A DNA stretch of 64,000 nt from Burkholderia metallica (GTDB lineage: Bacteria > Pseudomonadota > Gammaproteobacteria > Burkholderiales > Burkholderiaceae), in contig NZ_CADFDB010000006.1 of NCBI RefSeq assembly GCF_902832845.1, positions 267,313 through 331,312 of the forward strand. The letters are read 5' to 3'. Shown piece after piece: positions 1,278 through 41,780 of the stretch. The translations under genes and the position numbers were made by a program. A model generated the notes under the pieces. The model was not told the origin of the DNA. It saw only the letters and a program-made list of their open reading frames with translations, and did not search any database. Within the stretch, counting starts at the first letter, position 1, and the number at the start of each line of letters is the position of its first letter.

Positions 1278-4200
1278 TCAGTTCCGGATTTCGCCGAAAT
1301 CGAGGCCCGCGAGCGGCACCGCCGCCGCGTTTCCGCTCACGCCATTGCCGCTCATCCAGCCGAAGTTGAGGCCGACCAGCCCACCGTACAACTGGTCGTA
1401 GCCGGCCGTATAGGCAATACGGCTGCGCGAGCTCGAACGATCGACGTTGCCGAAGTTTTCGCCTGCGACGCCACCCAGCCGTGCATTGCGCCCGCCGGAC
1501 ACCGAGCCTGACGACGACGACGACGCGATCTTGCCGTCGTTTTTACCGACCAGGCCGCCAACCGAACTGCCATCGCCGCCCTTCGCCGAACCGAAGGCGT
1601 CGGACGCATCGATCGAAGCAATCGTGTGGTTGTGGCCGACCAGGCCGCCGACGTAGCTGCCCGCACCGGCAACGACGTCGCCCGACGCGCCCGACGACGA
1701 CACGCTGCCCCAGTTGAGGCCGACCAGGCCGCCTGCCCTGCCCCTGCCGGCGACATTCACGGCCCCGCTTGCGTAGGCGCTCACCACCTTGCCGAGGGCG
1801 CCGTTCCAGCCGACGAGACCACCTGCGATGCTGTCGTCGCCGGCCGAGACGTTGCCGCCCGCCGAGGAAGCGGCCACGAGGCCGTTGTTGTCGCCGACGA
1901 GACCGCCTGCCTGGCTCTGCGCACCGACCTTGACCGCGCCGCTGGCCGACGAACCGTCCACCTTGCCGATGTTCGAGCCCACGAGGCCGCCCGCCTTCAC
2001 GTTGTTGCGCCCTTCCACCTTGCCATGTGCGTCCGATGCGAGGATCTCGGCCTTGTCCGCGTTATGGCCGACGAGACCGCCCAGCTGGCTGCCGGCGCCC
2101 GCGGAGACATTACCGAGCGCAGTGGATGCGCGGATCGCGCCTTCGTTCAATCCCACGAGACCGCCCGACATCGCGCCGTTGCCGGCCTGAACGCTGCCGC
2201 CCGCCGTCGACGCGGCGATCTTGCCGCGATTTTCCCCGACGAGGCCGCCCGCTTTCCCGTTGTCGCCCACGGTCACGTCGCCCGTCGCGTCGGATGCGTC
2301 GATCAACGCGGCGTTGTAGCCGACGAGGCCGCCCGCCGTCGCATCGTGGCCGGCCCGCACGCTCGCAGACGAAGAAGCAGCCTTGATCACCCCGCCTTCG
2401 TTGTAACCGACGAGGCCGCCGACACGCGCATCGCGGGCCAGGGCGGTGACGCTACCCGCGACCGTCGACGCCGTGATGACGCCGCGGTTGACACCGCGGT
2501 TGACACCGACCAGGCCGCCCGTATCACCGGCCGACTCGCTGCTGACCTTGACGTCGGCGCGGCTGTTGCTGATGGTCGCGTCGCCCAGATCCGGCAGGAG
2601 GGCCGTGCGGTTTTCTCCAACCAGACCGCCGACGTACAGCGCGTCCTTGCCGCCTTCGACGCGGCCCGAAACCGATGCGCGATCGATCCGTCCGCTGATA
2701 TTGCTGCCGACCAGGCCACCGAGGATCGCGCGGCCGTTGCCGCTCACCAGGACGTCTTTCGCCTTTACGTTGGTGATGTCGCCCAGGTTGTAGCCGGCCA
2801 ATGCGCCGACGCTGACCGGCGACGCCGTGTACCCGGCCGGCGTGCGCGCCGTGATCTTGTCGAGCCCGAGGTTGGCGATGCGGCCGGTGTTGACCGCAAA
2901 CAACCCGACGACCGCACTGCCGGGATTCGAGACCGACAGATTGCCGATGGTATTGCCCAGACCGTCGAACACGCCGCTGAACGACGCACTGTCGCCGCCG
3001 AGGCTGCGGAATTGCGCCCCCTTGCCGTCGATCGCGTTACCCAGCACGTAGCGGCCGTTCATGTTGGCATCGACGCCGCGCAGCCCCGCGAGATCGTGAA
3101 TCACGCGATACGCTTCGCCGTTCGCCGAGAACGACGCATTGCGACCCGACAGCGTGACTACCGCATCGTCCGTCAGCGTATGACCGCTGCCCGAATTCAA
3201 CGCCAGGCTCGCGTTTTCGCCGGTCAGCGCCACGTTGTTGCCGATGCGAACGCGTTGCGCCGCGTTCATCGTCACGCCCGCGTTCGCGCCGCTCGCCGTC
3301 AGCGACTGCTTCAGGTCGACGCTGCCCTTTTTCGACGTCAGCGCCAGCGCGTTGTCGCTCGCCCAGTTCACCGCGTCGCCCACCGTCAGGTCGCCCGACG
3401 TGTTGGTCAGCGCCACGTTCGTCGTGCCCAGGTTGCGCGACAGCGTCTCGCCGTCGATCGCGGCGTTACCGCCGACTCCGGCGTTGGCCGCCTCGATCGT
3501 CCACAGGCCCGTGCGACCCGACGCCGCGCGCGTATCCACCTGCGCGTCGCGCGACACCGTCACGCGCTCGCCGCGCGTCGTTACCGTGCCGCCTGCCGTC
3601 GAGGCGTCCTGCGCGCTCGCGTCCAGCTTCCCGCCGACCTGAACCTCGCCGCCGTCGAGCGTGATCTTCCCGGCACGGCTGCTCAGGCCCTTCGCCTCGA
3701 TCGTGCCGCTGTTCCTGACCACCGAACCCAGCAGATCGCCTGCCGCGCGCGCCGTCATCAGCACTTCCCCGCCGTCCGCCTTCAGCAGTCCGCCGTTGTG
3801 CGCCTGTGCGTCCACCGCCCCGCTTTCGACTTGCAGGTTCAGCAGCCCGTTGCCGTCGAAGTTCACGTTGAACGCATTGCCCGCGCCCAGCGCCACGCGC
3901 CCCATCTGCGCACGGATCACGCCCGTGTTCGACACCCGCGCGCCCAGCAGCGCCACGCTGCCGCCATCCGCCGCCGCGATCGTCCCGGCGTTCTCCACCG
4001 ACTGGCCCGAGGCTCCGGCGAACCGGTAGCGACCCGCCAGGAAATCCGCATCCGACAGGTTCTGCGTCGACGCCACCAGACCGCCCACGTTCACCTGCGC
4101 GCCCGCGCCGAACATCACGCCGTTCGGGTTCACCAGGAACACCCGCCCGTTCGCGTCCAGCTGGCCGTGAATCTGGCTGCCGTTCGCGCCGACCACCCGG

Positions 4201-25674: not shown

Positions 25675-25854
25675 CGCGGCGGCGCGTTCGCGCCGGCTCC
25701 GTCGATGTGCGTCTTCCATCGAAATCGCTCGTCCGTCACCAGCCGCGCGGCGTGCAATGCGCGAGTGAACGCCCGGTGCGCACATCCGGCAGCGGTGCCA
25801 TTCCGTTGAATCGGCCGATCGGGGTCGGTTCGCGGCCACACCCGCACGCATGAA

Positions 25855-25892
25855 GAAAAAAAATCGGCCGCCCGGGGGGAGGGGGCGGCCGT
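25855..25892 (-). terminator. Rho-independent terminator facing left with no gene before it
   Basis: Perfect 9-bp arms CGGCCGCCC (25865-25873) and GGGCGGCCG (25883-25891). On the minus strand the hairpin is followed by GA and eight T residues. No minus-strand gene lies upstream within 1 kb, so it likely ends a short non-coding transcript. Confidence 0.8.
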
Positions 25893-25942
25893 CAAGGAGA
25901 GATCCCTGTCCGGGATACCGGCGGACACCACTCCGGACCGGT
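25856..25942 (-). ncRNA. candidate small RNA, unit A
   Basis: Predicted from architecture only. The dyad at 25976-25993 is followed 33 nt on by TTCGTCAACAAT (25960-25949), which could hold a -10 element. About 87 nt later comes a U-tailed terminator. The predicted 5' part can form a 6-bp stem (25933-25938 with 25908-25913). A short frame of 28 codons in the same strand (MVSGIAFVNN onward) stops just before the terminator; I cannot tell whether it is translated. Confidence 0.35.
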
Positions 25943-25975
25943 ACAGGTATTGTTGACGAACGCGATTCCGCTGAC

Positions 25976-25993
25976 CATCGGACCGGTCTGATT
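25976..25993 (-). repeat. dispersed 18-bp inverted repeat, copy A
   Basis: On the minus strand AATCAGAC-CG-GTCCGATG. Half-sites match the consensus AATCRGAC. It sits 33 nt before the TTCGTCAACAAT box of candidate unit A. Confidence 0.6.
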
Positions 25994-26185
25994 TGCAGCC
26001 CGATGCATGAAAATCACGGCGTCCCGAGCCTGACGCCTCCGTCGCATTCGCAACGCACCGTTACGTTCGCGACGGGAACCCCATACGCGGCGACCTGTCG
26101 AATCGCCGCACGACCGTCGACGGCTTCGCCGCCATGGCGGACAATCCCTTCTCCAGCCCCGCTCGAATACGTCCCGCCCTTTCAC

Positions 26186-26995
26186 ATGCTGAGCATTGGT
26201 CCCTTCTCGATCCGCGTCGTCGCGGTAGCCGTCGCCGCGCTGCTCGCGTGGCTCGTCGCCCGTTTCCTCCAGCGCCGGCCGCCCGACGGACATCACAAGA
26301 CCGCATCGAGCCTCGTCCTCGATACGTTGCTGCTCGGCCTGCTCGCCGCGCGGTTCGGCTACGTCGCGCAGTGGTGGCGCGAGTACGCCGCCGCGCCGCG
26401 CTCGATCGTCGCGCTCGGCGACGGCGGCTTCGACTGGCGCATCGGCGTCGCGGCCGCGATCGTGTTCGCGGGCTGGCGCCTGCGCCGCCTGCCCGCGCTG
26501 CGTCGCCCGGTGATGGCCGGGATGCTCGCGGGCCTCGCCGCATGGGGCATCGCGCAAGGGACGCTGGCCACGTTGCAGCACGGCGCGCCGCCGCTCGCCG
26601 CGCTGCAGCTCGAAGCGCTCGATGCGACGCCCGTGCCGGCGCAACGCTTCGCGGGCAAGCCGATCGTCGTGAACCTGTGGGCGACGTGGTGCCCGCCGTG
26701 CCAGCGCGAAATGCCGATCCTCGCACAAGCGCAGCAGGATCATCCGGGAATGACGGTGCTGATGGTCAATCAGGGCGAAGACGCGCAAACGGTGCGCGCG
26801 TTCCTCGAACAGAAAGGGCTGCGGTTCGATCACGTGCTGCTCGATCGCACGCTGCACGCGATGAAAGCGTACGGCTCGCGCGGGCTGCCGACGACGCTCT
26901 TCTTCGACGCGCAAGGCAACCTCGTCGAATCGCACATGGGCGAGATCACCGCCGCGCGGCTGAAAGACGCCGTGGCGGATCGCTTCGGCCAGTAA
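26186..26995 (+). CDS. membrane-anchored TlpA/ResA-type thiol-disulfide oxidoreductase
   Basis: A 269-residue protein with two parts. Residues 1-130 are a polytopic membrane domain of about four helices (FSIRVVAVAVAALLAWLVARF, LLGLLAARFGYVAQWWREYA) resembling the first helices of Lgt-like proteins. Residues about 140-269 form a thioredoxin domain with the active site WATWCPPCQREMP and the cis-proline loop GLPTTLFF. It should reduce or shuttle disulfides on the periplasmic side, for example in cytochrome c maturation or redox repair. ATG 26186 is chosen because the membrane domain starts there; the longer open frame runs through non-coding sequence. Confidence 0.88.
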   Translation: MLSIGPFSIRVVAVAVAALLAWLVARFLQRRPPDGHHKTASSLVLDTLLLGLLAARFGYVAQWWREYAAAPRSIVALGDGGFDWRIGVAAAIVFAGWRLRRLPALRRPVMAGMLAGLAAWGIAQGTLATLQHGAPPLAALQLEALDATPVPAQRFAGKPIVVNLWATWCPPCQREMPILAQAQQDHPGMTVLMVNQGEDAQTVRAFLEQKGLRFDHVLLDRTLHAMKAYGSRGLPTTLFFDAQGNLVESHMGEITAARLKDAVADRFGQ

Positions 26996-27123
26996 CGCGC
27001 GCCGGTCGAGGGGCAGCGGCAACGCGCATCACCGCCGCGGCCAGCCGGGCCGCACGACGTGCCGGCAGATGAACGCGCGACATGCGTGAAGCTCGATCGG
27101 CGCAGCGGCAAGCGCGACGCCGA

Positions 27124-27141
27124 AATCGGACAGGTCCGATT
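27124..27141. repeat. dispersed 18-bp inverted repeat, perfect copy
   Basis: AATCGGAC-AG-GTCCGATT has perfect 8-bp arms and lies 35 bp upstream of the K+ channel start codon. This position suits an operator. No TTC-box or terminator follows. Confidence 0.55.
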
Positions 27142-27175
27142 GGCCGTGCCGGATGCGCGCCGTAAACTCCGGCGC

Positions 27176-28027
27176 ATGATGACGCAGATCCAGTCCACTT
27201 TCGGCGCGCTGCGCGACGCCGCCGCGCATTGCGCCCGCCGCCCCACGTTCCTTCGCAACCTCGACATCGCGGTACTCGCACTGATCGTCGCGAGCGTGCT
27301 CGTCGTGATGGCCGACAGCGTGCACGACCTGCACGAACGGTACGGCCACGCGCTCTATGCGGCCGAATGGGCGTTCACGCTGCTGTTCACCGTCGAATAT
27401 CTGGTGCGGCTGCTTTCCGCGCCGAAGCCGGCCGCCTATGCGCGCAGTTTCTTCGGCATCGTCGATCTCGTGTCGGTCCTGCCGACCTACCTCGCATTCT
27501 TCTTCCCCGGCCTGCATGCGCTGATCGACGTCCGGCTGCTCCGGCTGTTGCGCGTGTTCCGCATCCTCGGTCTGTCGATCTACCTCGAGGAAGGGCAGAT
27601 GCTGATGCGCGCGCTGACCCGCGCGCGGCGCAAGATCTTCGTGTTCATCGGCGGGATGTTCGTGCTGGTGGTGATCCTCGGCACGCTGATCTTCCTCATC
27701 GAAGGGCCGGAGAACGGCATCACGAGCATTCCGGTGGGCGTGTACTGGGCAGCCGTGACGATGAGCACGACCGGCTACGGCGATCTGACGCCGCATACGC
27801 CGCTCGGCCGGCTCATCACGTCGTGCGCGATCCTGCTCGGTTACGGGATCATTGCGTTTCCCACCGGGATCATGGGCGCGGAGCTGGTTGCATCGGCACT
27901 GGAGCGCACGCGCGCCAACACGCGGCCGGCCATCGGCGACGAGCCGTGCTGCCCGCATTGCGGTGTCGCGCTGCCGGTGCGCAATGCGCCGGATGCCGAC
28001 GCAGGCGGCGAGCAGGCGACGAAGTGA
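27176..28027 (+). CDS. voltage-gated potassium channel family protein
   Basis: A 283-residue six-helix ion channel. A voltage-sensor-like S4 (DVRLLRLLRVFRILGLSIYL) carries regularly spaced arginines, and the pore has the selectivity filter TMSTTGYGDLTP, diagnostic of K+ selectivity. The cytoplasmic tail ends with a small zinc-ribbon-like CCPHCGVALP segment, which is uncommon. Start: two adjacent ATG codons (27176 and 27179); homology begins here, although the frame is open further upstream through the dyad at 27124-27141. It stands alone and ends in a strong hairpin at 28137-28164. Confidence 0.92.
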   Translation: MMTQIQSTFGALRDAAAHCARRPTFLRNLDIAVLALIVASVLVVMADSVHDLHERYGHALYAAEWAFTLLFTVEYLVRLLSAPKPAAYARSFFGIVDLVSVLPTYLAFFFPGLHALIDVRLLRLLRVFRILGLSIYLEEGQMLMRALTRARRKIFVFIGGMFVLVVILGTLIFLIEGPENGITSIPVGVYWAAVTMSTTGYGDLTPHTPLGRLITSCAILLGYGIIAFPTGIMGAELVASALERTRANTRPAIGDEPCCPHCGVALPVRNAPDADAGGEQATK

Positions 28028-28136
28028 TCGGTGCGGTCGGCGCGGTCGGCGTGGGCGACGCGCCGGGCGTCCATCTCGATGAAGCCCGTGCGCAGCAGGG
28101 AATCGCGCGCGTTCAGGCGAAACTGCTGTAACGCAA

Positions 28137-28164
28137 CGGGCCGAACCCTCCATGGTTCGGCCCG
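28137..28164. terminator. bidirectional terminator between K+ channel and marC
   Basis: Perfect 11-bp arms CGGGCCGAACC and GGTTCGGCCCG with a CTCCAT loop, followed on the plus strand by GCTTCTTTCC. It lies between two convergent genes and can serve both. Confidence 0.75.
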
Positions 28165-28205
28165 GCTTCTTTCCACCCACCGCACGCACGCGCGCTATCG
28201 CCGCG

Positions 28206-28874
28206 TCACTTCACCTGGCCACCCAGCATCTGCGCGAAAGCCGCCAGCCCCGTCAGCATGATCTGCACGCCCACGCACAGCAGCAGGAACGCCGACACCC
28301 GCATCGCCACTTTCGTCCCCTCGCTGCCGAGATAACGCGCGAGCGTCGTCGCGCGGCTGTAGATCTGCCAGATCGCGAACGCGACGAGCGCCGCGACCGC
28401 CACCGACACCACGCCCGACGCCACATAGTCGGCGACCGTGCGCGTACGGTTCGCGTGCAGTGCAATGCCGGCCGCGATCGAGCCGGGGCCGATCGTCAGC
28501 GGCACCGTGAGCGGGAAGAACGCGCGCGCCATCAGCCTCGGAAAATCGTCGCCATGCGTGGCGCTGTCGCCGCCCGGTACGTCCGGCGCGTTGAGCATCG
28601 ACCAGCCGGCCACGGCCACCGCGAAGCCGCCGCCGATTCGCAGCGCCTCCATCGAGATCCCGAAGAAATTCAACACCGGCGCCCCGATGAAGAAGATCAC
28701 GAGCAGCGTGAAGAACACGTTGGTGGCGAGCTTTTTCGACAGCGTCGCACGCTCGGTCTCCGTCAGCGATTGCGTGCGCTCGAGAAACACGAACGCCATG
28801 CCGACAGGATTGATGATGCCCATCAGACCGGTAAAGCCGAACAGGATTTCAGGAATCAGGCGGTCGACCGGCAT
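28206..28874 (-). CDS. MarC family inner-membrane protein
   Basis: A 222-residue six-helix membrane protein of the MarC (UPF0056) family, whose biochemical role is not established despite the old link to multiple antibiotic resistance. Family motifs are GLMGIINPVGMAFVFLE near the N-terminus and the internally related FPLTVPLTIGPGSIAAGIAL in the second half. The start at 28874 has GAGGAG 10 nt upstream. The frame is also open from an ATG at 28949, but that would pass through a terminator hairpin and its GGAGGT abuts the ATG too closely. The leader carrying a U-tailed terminator at 28907-28938 suggests attenuation. Confidence 0.88.
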   Translation of the reverse strand: MPVDRLIPEILFGFTGLMGIINPVGMAFVFLERTQSLTETERATLSKKLATNVFFTLLVIFFIGAPVLNFFGISMEALRIGGGFAVAVAGWSMLNAPDVPGGDSATHGDDFPRLMARAFFPLTVPLTIGPGSIAAGIALHANRTRTVADYVASGVVSVAVAALVAFAIWQIYSRATTLARYLGSEGTKVAMRVSAFLLLCVGVQIMLTGLAAFAQMLGGQVK

Positions 28875-28906
28875 CGCGATCGTGCTCCTCGATAGTGGAC
28901 AGGGAA

Positions 28907-28938
28907 GAAAAAAGCGACCGGTCAAAGAGACCGGCCGC
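28907..28938 (-). terminator. U-tailed terminator in the marC leader
   Basis: Arms GCGACCGGTC (28914-28923) and GACCGGCCGC (28929-28938), with one pair that is G-U in RNA, loop AAAGA on the plus strand. On the minus strand it is followed by six T residues. It ends 33 nt upstream of the marC start codon on the same strand, an attenuator-like position. Confidence 0.75.
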
Positions 28939-28992
28939 CAAACGGACATACCTCCAGAATCCGGCACGCGCGGAAGCGCGCCGGCCCGCAGA
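28908..28992 (-). ncRNA. candidate small RNA or marC attenuator leader, unit B
   Basis: Architecture matches units A and D: dyad at 29026-29043, TTCATCGACAAT 33 nt downstream (29010-28999), a GC-rich hairpin at 28961-28985 near the predicted 5' end, then a U-tailed terminator. Here the unit lies directly upstream of marC, so the same transcript could continue into marC when termination fails. Confidence 0.4.
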
Positions 28993-29025
28993 ACCCCGAT
29001 TGTCGATGAAGCCGGGTCCGCGGAA

Positions 29026-29043
29026 AATCAGTCGGGTCTGATT
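29026..29043 (-). repeat. dispersed 18-bp inverted repeat, copy B
   Basis: Plus strand AATCAGTC-GG-GTCTGATT; seven of eight positions pair between arms. Flanking GTCCGC and GCGGAC extend the symmetry. It lies 33 nt before the TTCATCGACAAT box of unit B. Confidence 0.65.
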
Positions 29044-29384
29044 TTGCGGACGACGTGAGCGTCGTGCGATCTGCGGGGCAATCCCGCCTCGCGGGTATCC
29101 AGGATTTTGTCTGACGGTTGTCGGCGTAGACGGAAAAGGTGTGTTCGGCGGCCCGCTCCGGCTGCCGCTAGAACGCCTTCGGCAACGCACGCGCCGTTGC
29201 ATCACGCAGGCCACCGCACCTGCGAATGAAGCGTGTGGCACCGGAAATCCTCGGCGCTCGCATGAGGCAGCGTTGGGAGTAGCGCTATCAATGAATAGCA
29301 TGACTGCGACCGGGCCCAACGGTCGCCGCCGAAGCCCGACCGACACCACACCTGTTCAATTTAGCCTGAATGATCGTCACAACC

Positions 29385-29402
29385 AATCGGACCAGACTGA
29401 TT
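29385..29402 (+). repeat. dispersed 18-bp inverted repeat, copy C
   Basis: AATCGGAC-CA-GACTGATT on the plus strand. A degenerate box CGTCAGCAAT follows at about the same distance as in the other units, on the plus strand. No U-tailed terminator was found downstream. Confidence 0.55.
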
Positions 29403-29555
29403 CTGCGATGGGTCGACGCACGTCAGCAATCGCACGCTGGAACGATTCCGATGCAAACGAAAAGCGGCCGAGCCCTCCGGTCGCCGCAACGCATCCGCGC
29501 CTGTCCGCGCGCCACGCATCGCGATGTCGGTTCGATCGGCGCGCCCATACCGCCG

Positions 29556-29586
29556 AAAAAAAGACGCTGCCCGAAACCGGGCAGCG
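29556..29586 (-). terminator. Rho-independent terminator with no gene before it
   Basis: Perfect 9-bp arms CGCTGCCCG (29565-29573) and CGGGCAGCG (29578-29586), tetraloop, then TCTTTTTTT on the minus strand. Upstream on that strand there is only unit D. Confidence 0.82.
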
Positions 29587-29647
29587 CATTGAACGAAGAC
29601 ATGCTTCGGATACGAGGTGTCGGGCACATACCATGCGGTCACCCGAC
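29556..29647 (-). ncRNA. candidate small RNA, unit D
   Basis: Dyad at 29682-29699, TTCTTCGACAAT 34 nt downstream (29665-29654), a 6-bp stem GTCGGG/CCCGAC (29642-29647 with 29619-29624) at the predicted 5' end, and a U-tailed terminator. The stem occupies the same relative place as in unit A but differs in one base pair, which keeps pairing. Confidence 0.38.
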
Positions 29648-29681
29648 CTGCGTATTGTCGAAGAACAGGTGGCGCCCGCAC

Positions 29682-29699
29682 AATCAGCCTGGTCCTATT
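29682..29699 (-). repeat. dispersed 18-bp inverted repeat, copy D
   Basis: Plus strand AATCAGCC-TG-GTCCTATT. It precedes the TTCTTCGACAAT box of unit D by 34 nt on the minus strand. Confidence 0.55.
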
Positions 29700-29904
29700 C
29701 CGCAAGATTTCATCGGCCACGTGCGCGACGCTCGCGTCGACGTTCATGCGACTTCACCGCTCGGCATCGCACGCCTGCGCATCGTTCATCATTTGCGCGC
29801 CCGATCGATCGCAGGCGGAGCGTTCCGGCCGCCTGTCTCGTCAAGAGCGCAGACGACACGGATCTCCGTCAGAGAGGTCGGTCATCGATCCCGCAGCACG
29901 CATG

Positions 29905-29922
29905 AATCAGACCGGGCCTACG
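29905..29922 (+). repeat. dispersed 18-bp inverted repeat, weak copy E
   Basis: AATCAGAC-CG-GGCCTACG: the left half-site is a perfect match and the right one is degenerate. A small ACTCGT/ACGAGT hairpin lies about 50 nt downstream. Confidence 0.35.
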
Positions 29923-30199
29923 CGCGCTTTCCCGACAGGGCCGTCCGGCGATACGCGCACTCGTTCAGTACGAGTTCGATTCATATATCAACTTGTTTAG
30001 AACTTGTCCTATTCAATTGCCGGATGCCGCCGCCTAAAGTGGAGTGCATCGAGGCACCGGGTCTTCCGCCGCAACCGGCGCGACATCTCGCGATGTCATC
30101 CGGCAACCTGCTCCGCATTGCGAAGTTTCGTCAGCCTCCCTCGATTCACGATGCCGCCGATCGCCTCCGACGCGCGACGGCTTTCCGGAGCGACCTCAC

Positions 30200-40866: not shown

Positions 40867-40884
40867 AATCAGTCTAGTCCGATA
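40867..40884 (+). repeat. dispersed 18-bp inverted repeat, copy G
   Basis: AATCAGTC-TA-GTCCGATA; half-sites match the consensus with one mismatch each. Plus-strand orientation would place the downstream RNA hairpin at 40916-40987. Confidence 0.55.
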
Positions 40885-40915
40885 GGCGGCGGTTTTCCCG
40901 ATCGATATGCTTCAC

Positions 40916-40987
40916 GGGTGCGGTGCCGGTGAGGCCCTATTCATGTTCGGAGTGAGTCGGTCCATCCTCTTCACCGGTGCCGCACCC
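40916..40987 (+). repeat. 17-nt-arm inverted repeat, fully paired as plus-strand RNA
   Basis: Arms 40916-40932 and 40971-40987 pair at 15 of 17 positions in DNA. The two exceptions become G-U pairs in plus-strand RNA but A-C mismatches in minus-strand RNA, which suggests a plus-strand transcript. The loop is 38 nt. Confidence 0.5.
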
Positions 40988-41390
40988 CTGCCCCCCTTGC
41001 GATCGGGCTTCGGTGTGGGCGTTCGACGGTGGCCGGTGGGCGCGGCCACGACAGAGATGCTGATGTTGAAACGACACGCTGCCATATGCGAACGTCGAGC
41101 GCCTGCTCCGAAGCCCGATTGCCCTCTCCCCGCAGCCCCTGCGCAATCGCGCATCATTCAGAGAATCGATACGCACGCCGATATAGTTTCGAGAATATAT
41201 CGAAATATCGTCAATTACACACACTTCATTAAATCGATTAACCCTGATTTTCTATTTACTGAACAATTGCCATTCACGGGCGAATATTTTTTTATTTATT
41301 TTTCGGCATGCTCGACACGTCGCGTTTCAAACGGCAAACGTTTGCGCGACGGGACACGATTCCTTATGCACCAATCATCAGGAGGAAAGC

Positions 41391-41780
41391 ATGGCCGACT
41401 CTCAAACGTCTTCCAATCGCGCCGGCGAGTTTTCGATTCCGCCGAATACCGATTTCCGCGCGATTTTCTTCGCGAATGCCGCCGAGCAGCAGCACATCAA
41501 GCTGTTTATCGGCGACAGCAACGAGCCCGCCGCGTATCACAAGCTGACCACGCGCGACGGCCCGCGTGAAGCCAAGCTGAATTCCGGCAACGGCAAGCTC
41601 CGCTTCGAGGTGACGGTGAACGGCAAGACGTCGGCCACCGACGCGCGCCTCGCGCCGATCAACGGGAAGAAAGCGGACGGCTCGCCGTACACGGTCAACT
41701 TCGGGATCGTCGTGTCGGAAGACGGCCACGACAGCGACTACAACGACGGCATCGTCGTGCTCCAGTGGCCGATCGGCTGA
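41391..41780 (+). CDS. bclA: soluble calcium-dependent mannose-binding lectin, BC2L-A type
   Basis: A 129-residue lectin almost identical in layout to B. cenocepacia BC2L-A: a single PA-IIL-like domain with the calcium-site loop SEDGHDSDYNDGIVVL near the C-terminus and the terminal Gly that donates a ligand from the dimer partner. The family binds mannose/fucose-type sugars through two calcium ions and is exported without a classical signal peptide; none is seen here. ATG 41391 has AGGAGG. First gene of the bclACB operon. In B. cenocepacia this operon is known to be under quorum-sensing control. Confidence 0.95.
   Translation: MADSQTSSNRAGEFSIPPNTDFRAIFFANAAEQQHIKLFIGDSNEPAAYHKLTTRDGPREAKLNSGNGKLRFEVTVNGKTSATDARLAPINGKKADGSPYTVNFGIVVSEDGHDSDYNDGIVVLQWPIG

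Follow-up and report, generated by a model that had tools for sequence, protein, structure and literature searches.

Three units built on one plan had been noted on the minus strand of a 64,000-nucleotide stretch of the Burkholderia metallica genome (contig NZ_CADFDB010000006.1, positions 267,313 to 331,312; hereafter the window, numbered from its first letter): a dyad, then a 12-nt box, then a U-tailed terminator. What are these units, and what would switch them on? The observation of three like-built units is confirmed, and we think it fairly probable that they are promoters of one regulon of small RNAs (sRNAs) and terminating leaders under an RcsB-type activator. Genomes, loci and contigs are labelled G (G000 being this one), L and C, respectively, and the features are collected in Table 1.

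A palindrome at a fixed distance from a -10 element

The three dyads, of units A, B and D, are copies of a palindrome with the consensus AATCRGAC-NN-GTCYGATT, and the boxes are present at the positions described for them (starting at 25960, 29010 and 29665 on the minus strand), as is a terminator stem in each unit; that of A came from a stem scan and is not in the terminator list that gave those of B and D. The spacing of 33, 33 and 34 nt given in the preliminary description holds from the start of the dyad to the start of the box; read as a gap, from the end of the dyad to ACAAT, it is 22, 22 and 23 nt. At one mismatch or fewer the palindrome occurs at seven places in the genome (four in the window, two on contig C19 and one on contig C2), and at two mismatches or fewer at 22 places, vs none for a reversed control.

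A -10 hexamer, NACAAT or TANNNT, follows 21–22 bp past the palindrome. In this genome we counted the spacing at 14 loci, which add up to 245,740 bases and were in part picked for holding dyads, reading every palindrome in both directions. Among the 46 matches, TANNNT fell eight times at +21 vs six times across the other 94 positions, and ACAAT eight times at +22/+23 vs three times elsewhere. Sixteen loci of other genomes (138 matches) gave 26 occurrences of TANNNT at +21, the other 94 positions holding 40 with a maximum of four at any one, and 22 of ACAAT at +22/+23 vs eight elsewhere. The real palindrome had a -10 at +20 to +23 in 23 of 84 matches, whereas eight permuted palindromes gave 14–44 matches, zero or one of them with a -10 so placed. 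The combination of dyad and -10 is far beyond chance; the 12-nt box by itself is weak, with three matches at one mismatch or fewer in the window vs 1.16 expected. Exact TTCNTCRACAAT has 17 matches genome-wide, of which the 14 elsewhere lie, by eye, mostly inside apparent reading frames, and no palindrome scoring at least 13 of 16 was found in the 1-kb stretches around these 14, one stretch having a 12. The preliminary description had named a box at random distances from the dyad as one outcome that would speak against its idea. For the -10 hexamer, which keeps one distance behind the palindrome, we found the opposite. The box is the -10 element; with most genome copies of TTCNTCRACAAT lacking the palindrome, we reject it as a special separate motif. 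For comparison, the -10 consensus given for Burkholderia cenocepacia is TAnAAT (PMC4603805).

Because the usual 6–7 nt between -10 and start are assumed, the centre of the palindrome would lie near -42, the usual place for an activator overlapping the -35. With a fixed site next to the -35 region and a recognisable -10, these promoters resemble class II activator-dependent sigma-70 promoters, and from this anatomy we predict activation rather than repression. An operator of such fixed geometry would allow the regulon to be predicted genome-wide.

Predicted small RNAs and terminating leaders

The plan of palindrome, -10, RNA of 70–95 nt and terminator was found at eight loci in this genome (A, B, D, E, F, G, H and I). 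Seven of them (D, A, E, F, H, G and I) were returned by a scan for the palindrome, a -10 and a perfect terminator stem, which missed unit B because its stem is imperfect. With relatives included the scan gave 38 places, B of the window again missing and the RNAs of L037 and L041 each counted twice (two tandem palindromes).

Units D, F and G are paralogues. A covariance model of this family matched 17 of 65 genomes of the genus, 16 of them clearly (E < 1e-5), with three copies here; we regard as doubtful the match in G046 (E 8e-4) and the second copy in each of G002, G028 and G038 (E 1e-4 to 8e-4). The alignment holds 16 of 19 stretches, the other three being repeats; among earlier matches L030 and L040 were missed by the core pattern, and L026, L027 and L042 were left out as repeats. 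Its fold has a hairpin at the 5' end, a second, small hairpin and the terminator, with 98.8% of cells paired, both-sided changes at five of 21 pairs, and 21 two-sided changes vs 7.4 in shuffles, a number reached by none of 500. In unit D itself (fold z -3.5) the 5' hairpin is followed by a single-stranded linker containing ACCUCGUAUC, then by the small hairpin, CGAAG..CUUCG, and the terminator. By eye, F and G lack an ATG that lies in the loop, and the frame of this ATG varies between copies. At the level of sequence, D combines a promoter of its own, a terminator and a conserved non-coding fold, as a trans-acting sRNA would. D belongs to a true RNA family, absent from Rfam, and A and B are distinct RNAs sharing its promoter type. 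A match between units A and D was not found by blastn at E up to 0.1, and the 5' stem placed alike in the two, said to differ by a compensated base pair, finds no support as homology. The earlier proposal of a family of sRNAs or terminating leaders with a shared promoter type thus holds for the promoter and the kinds of RNA, but the units do not form a single RNA family.

Unit A with its promoter is 82–88% identical over 142–158 nt in five other genomes, the relatives being full-length in these five and partial in two, and the stretch CAGGGAUCUCUCCUUGACGGCCGC is invariant in six aligned sequences. Neither unit A nor unit D is followed directly by a gene. Unit B recurs in relatives before a gene that reads by eye as marC, whose start here is read at 28874, ~35 nt past the end of the B RNA; unit H precedes a NUDIX gene here, and by eye similar units do so in relatives. 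B and H precede genes and are therefore better named terminating leaders. These genes, and a PPIase gene lying behind unit G and the further RNA element described below, would also suit a reading in which every unit is an attenuator leader for the gene downstream, or what is left of one, and none is a trans-acting sRNA. We consider this unlikely, as the genes flanking A (LysR and redoxin-domain) lie on the opposite strand and D is a conserved family whose neighbours differ among its three copies here.

Two further groups of units were seen under this promoter. Varied terminating leaders stand at L017:13410 (+), before the NUDIX gene, at L051:6262 (-) and L053:2821 (-), and in L037 and L041:1398 (-); the genes downstream of those in L037, L051 and L053 are by eye NUDIX-like. 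A short unit of type I, composed of palindrome, CACAAT or GACAAT, and terminator, is alike in five genomes (L058:18627 (+), L047:2755 (-), L050:1392 (-), L052:4053 (-) and L055:16946 (+)).

A companion RNA element behind the promoters

A block of sequence behind the units is common to the A, D, E and G loci, to a unit C of the window and to the region upstream of lectin genes. We aligned 42 copies of this companion element (of 43 rows, one, L056:2456-2590, was judged false by eye and set aside), leaving out 11 further P2-like matches without the 3' motif, including the remnant at 29487. The parts of the element are a closing stem, a hairpin whose loop reads GUGGGC, an arm that varies and a second, short hairpin whose loop reads UGCCNNAU; the loops GUGGGC and UGCC could kiss. 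Covariation is strong in the closing stem, with two-sided changes at 21 of 30 pairs over the whole element and 223 two-sided cells vs 79.5 (sd 7.4) in shuffles; the number of pairs with two-sided changes was itself matched by 52 of 500 shuffles. The proportion of cells that pair is 91.5%, vs 30–45% when the structure is slid. No Rfam 15 match was found at the element, either in the window or in a search of 14 loci that admitted E values up to 5; one of the searches was at the gathering threshold only. On its covariation, we take the companion element to be a class of structured RNA that is not in Rfam 15.

The companion model matches 49 of 65 genomes of the genus and six places in this genome. 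In a family-wide sample it was found in 27 of 249 genomes, three of them outside the genus; at most 14 candidates were scored per genome, with strict filters, and absence outside the genus therefore counts for little. The matches in these three genomes (L171, L173 and L176) have no good palindrome upstream. Among 46 loci with retrieved DNA, a subset of all matches that overlaps the training set, 37 have palindrome and -10 upstream of the element at 114–174 nt in the same orientation, and nine do not; the palindrome is downstream at two of the 46. Four of the eight units have the element behind them, degraded in this genome behind A and D and present behind E and G, and one copy, L016:9292-9418, sits behind an amino-acid permease gene with no sRNA unit before it. 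So sharp a genomic association, together with the covariation, makes the function of this RNA class testable.

Might the conserved blocks instead be DNA elements, repeats or arrays of regulator-binding sites, in which the stems are incidental? The clustering of palindromes at several loci, and the repetition and partial degradation of the companion element in the window, are what such elements could show; we nevertheless regard it as very improbable, given the covariation in D, stronger still in the companion element, the position of that element behind the promoter in a constant orientation at 37 of 46 loci, and the U-tailed terminators. More tentatively than for the regulon of sRNAs and leaders itself, and with rather more doubt than confidence, we raise the possibility that one phosphorelay runs a battery of bipartite RNA genes, each a variable sRNA or leader module of 70–95 nt joined to a constant junction RNA, the companion element, as their common functional part. 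The junction RNA would then serve as a scaffold that binds protein or RNA, or would stabilise 3' ends, and the sRNA modules would be the variable specificities.

Table 1. Predicted promoters, RNAs and companion elements of the window (positions 1 to 64,000) and related loci of the same genome.
Feature	Position	Strand	Remarks
Unit A palindrome	25976..25993	-	AATCAGACCGGTCCGATG; putative activator site
Unit A -10 hexamer	25949..25954	-	AACAAT, 21 nt past palindrome
Unit A predicted sRNA	25856..25942	-	~87 nt, CU-rich stretch, terminator with C-rich loop; start assumed 6–7 nt behind -10
Companion copy behind unit A	25751..25850	-	Degraded; by eye against L047
Palindrome before ion-channel gene	27124..27141	+	Mismatch-free; -10 TAAACT 27163-27168
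Unit B palindrome	29026..29043	-	AATCAGACCCGACTGATT
Unit B -10 hexamer	28999..29004	-	GACAAT
Unit B predicted terminating leader RNA	28909..28992	-	Terminator stem 28939-28913
Unit C palindrome	29385..29402	-	AATCAGTCTGGTCCGATT; -10 TAAATT 29363-29358
Unit C companion RNA element	29234..29351	-	Directly behind promoter
Unit D palindrome	29682..29699	-	AATAGGACCAGGCTGATT
Unit D -10 hexamer	29654..29659	-	GACAAT
Unit D predicted sRNA	29556..29648	-	~93 nt; terminator 29587-29564
Companion remnant behind unit D	29464..29487	-	P2-like; 3' motif missing
Palindrome upstream of lectin genes	40867..40884	+	-10 TATGCT 40906-40911
Companion RNA element upstream of lectin genes	41004..41115	+	
Unit E	L015:11853		
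Unit F	L016:11300		
Unit G	L017:15481		
Unit H	L017:13410	+	
Unit I	L058:18627	+	
Companion copy outside window	L015:12012-12133	+	
Companion copy outside window	L016:9292-9418	-	
Companion copy outside window	L017:15183-15302	-	
Companion copy outside window	L017:7882-8001	-	

The long region before the lectin genes (40911-41391, plus strand) is composed of the palindrome promoter, a long hairpin without a U-run (by eye), the companion element and an A+T-rich stretch.

Candidate regulators and related systems

In a region of the genome with reading frames that are by eye autotransporter-like, there are genes for hybrid kinases carrying Hpt domains and for LuxR-type regulators. The closest solved structure to the response regulator L059:8895-9851 is RcsB (147 bits). 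Among 61 genomes, the same 14 have both an orthologue of this regulator (at least 67% identity) and one of the kinase L017:4773-7808 (at least 74%); D is present in all 14 and in two of the other 47. Palindromes number 12–22 per genome in the 14 (mean 16.3) vs 1–21 elsewhere (mean 7.3), and companion elements 4–7 vs 0–5. By eye, the palindrome fits the RcsAB consensus TaAGaatatTCcta (PMC4325325) at its five capital letters, A being taken as R. A second candidate may be a widespread RcsB-like paralogue, G000:C6:263657-264307 (47% identical), whose neighbours, a short way to the left of the window, are a hybrid kinase and fimbrial genes; the companion element is found in 44 of 52 genomes with a good RcsB-like match (at a threshold of E 1e-57 of our choosing) vs two of nine without. 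Also left of the window, L021 has weak palindromes (12 of 16) at 3926 (-) and 6457 (+), each with a -10 at +21; they lie close to where the fimbrial genes have their 5' ends, adjoining the RcsB-like regulator and hybrid kinase genes.

Exceptions aside, the geometry of the site and the co-occurrence together point to response regulators of the RcsB type and to hybrid sensor kinases. In the circuit that we propose, an RcsB-type response regulator, switched on by hybrid sensor kinases, would bind the palindrome near -42 and bring in RNA polymerase at a -10 that has no good -35 before it. Transcription would start ~6–7 nt behind the -10, and the transcripts of A, B, D, E, F, G, H and I would end 70–95 nt on at an intrinsic terminator, yielding sRNAs in the case of A and of the paralogues D, F and G, and terminating leaders in the case of B (before marC) and H (before the NUDIX gene). 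The sRNAs would most likely base-pair with messenger RNAs through conserved unpaired stretches.

Several observations weigh against this circuit. G013 and G021 have no L059-type regulator, yet they have 16 and 21 palindromes, respectively, and G013 retains A and B while G021 retains B and part of A; G026 and G040 carry D, again without an L059-type regulator. These four genomes weaken the L059 regulator as a candidate for sole regulator, and with D or palindromes present in its absence another regulator, perhaps the widespread RcsB-like paralogue, must therefore serve in those genomes. The co-occurrence counts, moreover, ignore shared ancestry. The fold of unit A alone is unremarkable (z -1.9, with nine of 200 shuffles as good), and a CU-rich stretch, considered as a common seed, precedes the terminators at 23 of 38 places vs 17 of 41 controls (some units being among the controls), with no enrichment. 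Lastly, the search of 25700-30000 for sigma-70 type hexamer pairs with a TTGACA-like -35 found none vs 0.5 expected, which says little against a repressor. In G013, a short frame (L046:272-763) clusters with the receiver/Hpt end of the hybrid kinase whose orthologues were counted above.

The palindrome could also be read as the operator of a repressor lying over the edge of the -35, the RNAs being made when the repressor leaves. TetR-type operators with a GAC-NN-GTC core offer a comparison, and both the 2-bp centre and the position of the palindrome, touching the -35, would suit such a protein. We judge this improbable: the palindromes co-occur with genes for the RcsB-like regulator and kinases, their by-eye match is to the RcsAB consensus, and, as a further and weak argument for an activator over a repressor, no TTGACA-like -35 was found.

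RprA of enterobacteria is linked to the Rcs phosphorelay, which the proposed circuit resembles in its RcsB-type regulator, its hybrid kinase with Hpt domain and an sRNA promoter under their control. The difference is that here the promoter type, with the site AATCRGACNNGTCYGATT, precedes eight loci for sRNAs or leaders, and at four of these a companion element follows. To our knowledge, it is uncommon for a single transcription factor to have many sRNA loci in its regulon. In B. cenocepacia, two histidine kinases (BCAM0218 and BCAM0227) and three regulators (BCAM0221, BCAM0222 and BCAM0228) lie beside trimeric autotransporter adhesin genes and have been suggested to form a signalling cascade (PMC3404963). 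This cluster is likely the equivalent of the regulator region here, the two being equated by gene content; in contrast to the present case, the portions of that account available to us give no operator for these kinases and regulators and mention no sRNA or RNA element (PMC3404963). If the sRNAs are real, they would add an RNA layer to surface-adhesion signalling in these opportunists; if they are expressed, the palindrome, the sRNAs and the companion RNA would make up one little-studied regulatory circuit in Burkholderia.

Among described Burkholderia sRNAs, D showed no Rfam match at or above a family's cut-off. BcKCsr2 (RF02883, Burkholderia sRNA 2) aligns weakly with D over its full length, at 17.9 bits vs a cut-off of 40, whereas its true, above-cut-off match lies elsewhere in the genome and recurs in all 65 of the 65 genomes; we reject the identity of the two. 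The double-hairpin sRNAs ncS03, ncS05, ncS27 and ncS62 (RF02278) are likewise short paralogous Burkholderia sRNAs with CU-rich unpaired stretches, and three of the four share an upstream motif (PMC5688073); the sole RF02278 match to a D-type locus, however, scores 21.9 bits vs a cut-off of 50, with none in the window, and D-type units are not assigned to this family of toxic small RNAs. For the low-oxygen (lxa) regulon, suspected from the gene list, no matching site was found in the literature as far as it was accessible, nor was a prior description of these RNAs, which unlisted supplementary tables of transcription start sites may hold. The region of interest presumably lies lower on chromosome 2 than 1.1 Mb. 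All ten chromosome-2 entries in the table of PMC10987360 lie above 1.1 Mb. A match to the Rfam family Bcj14 (RF02836), unconnected with the units, stands at L058:1052-1224 on the minus strand (178.6 bits).

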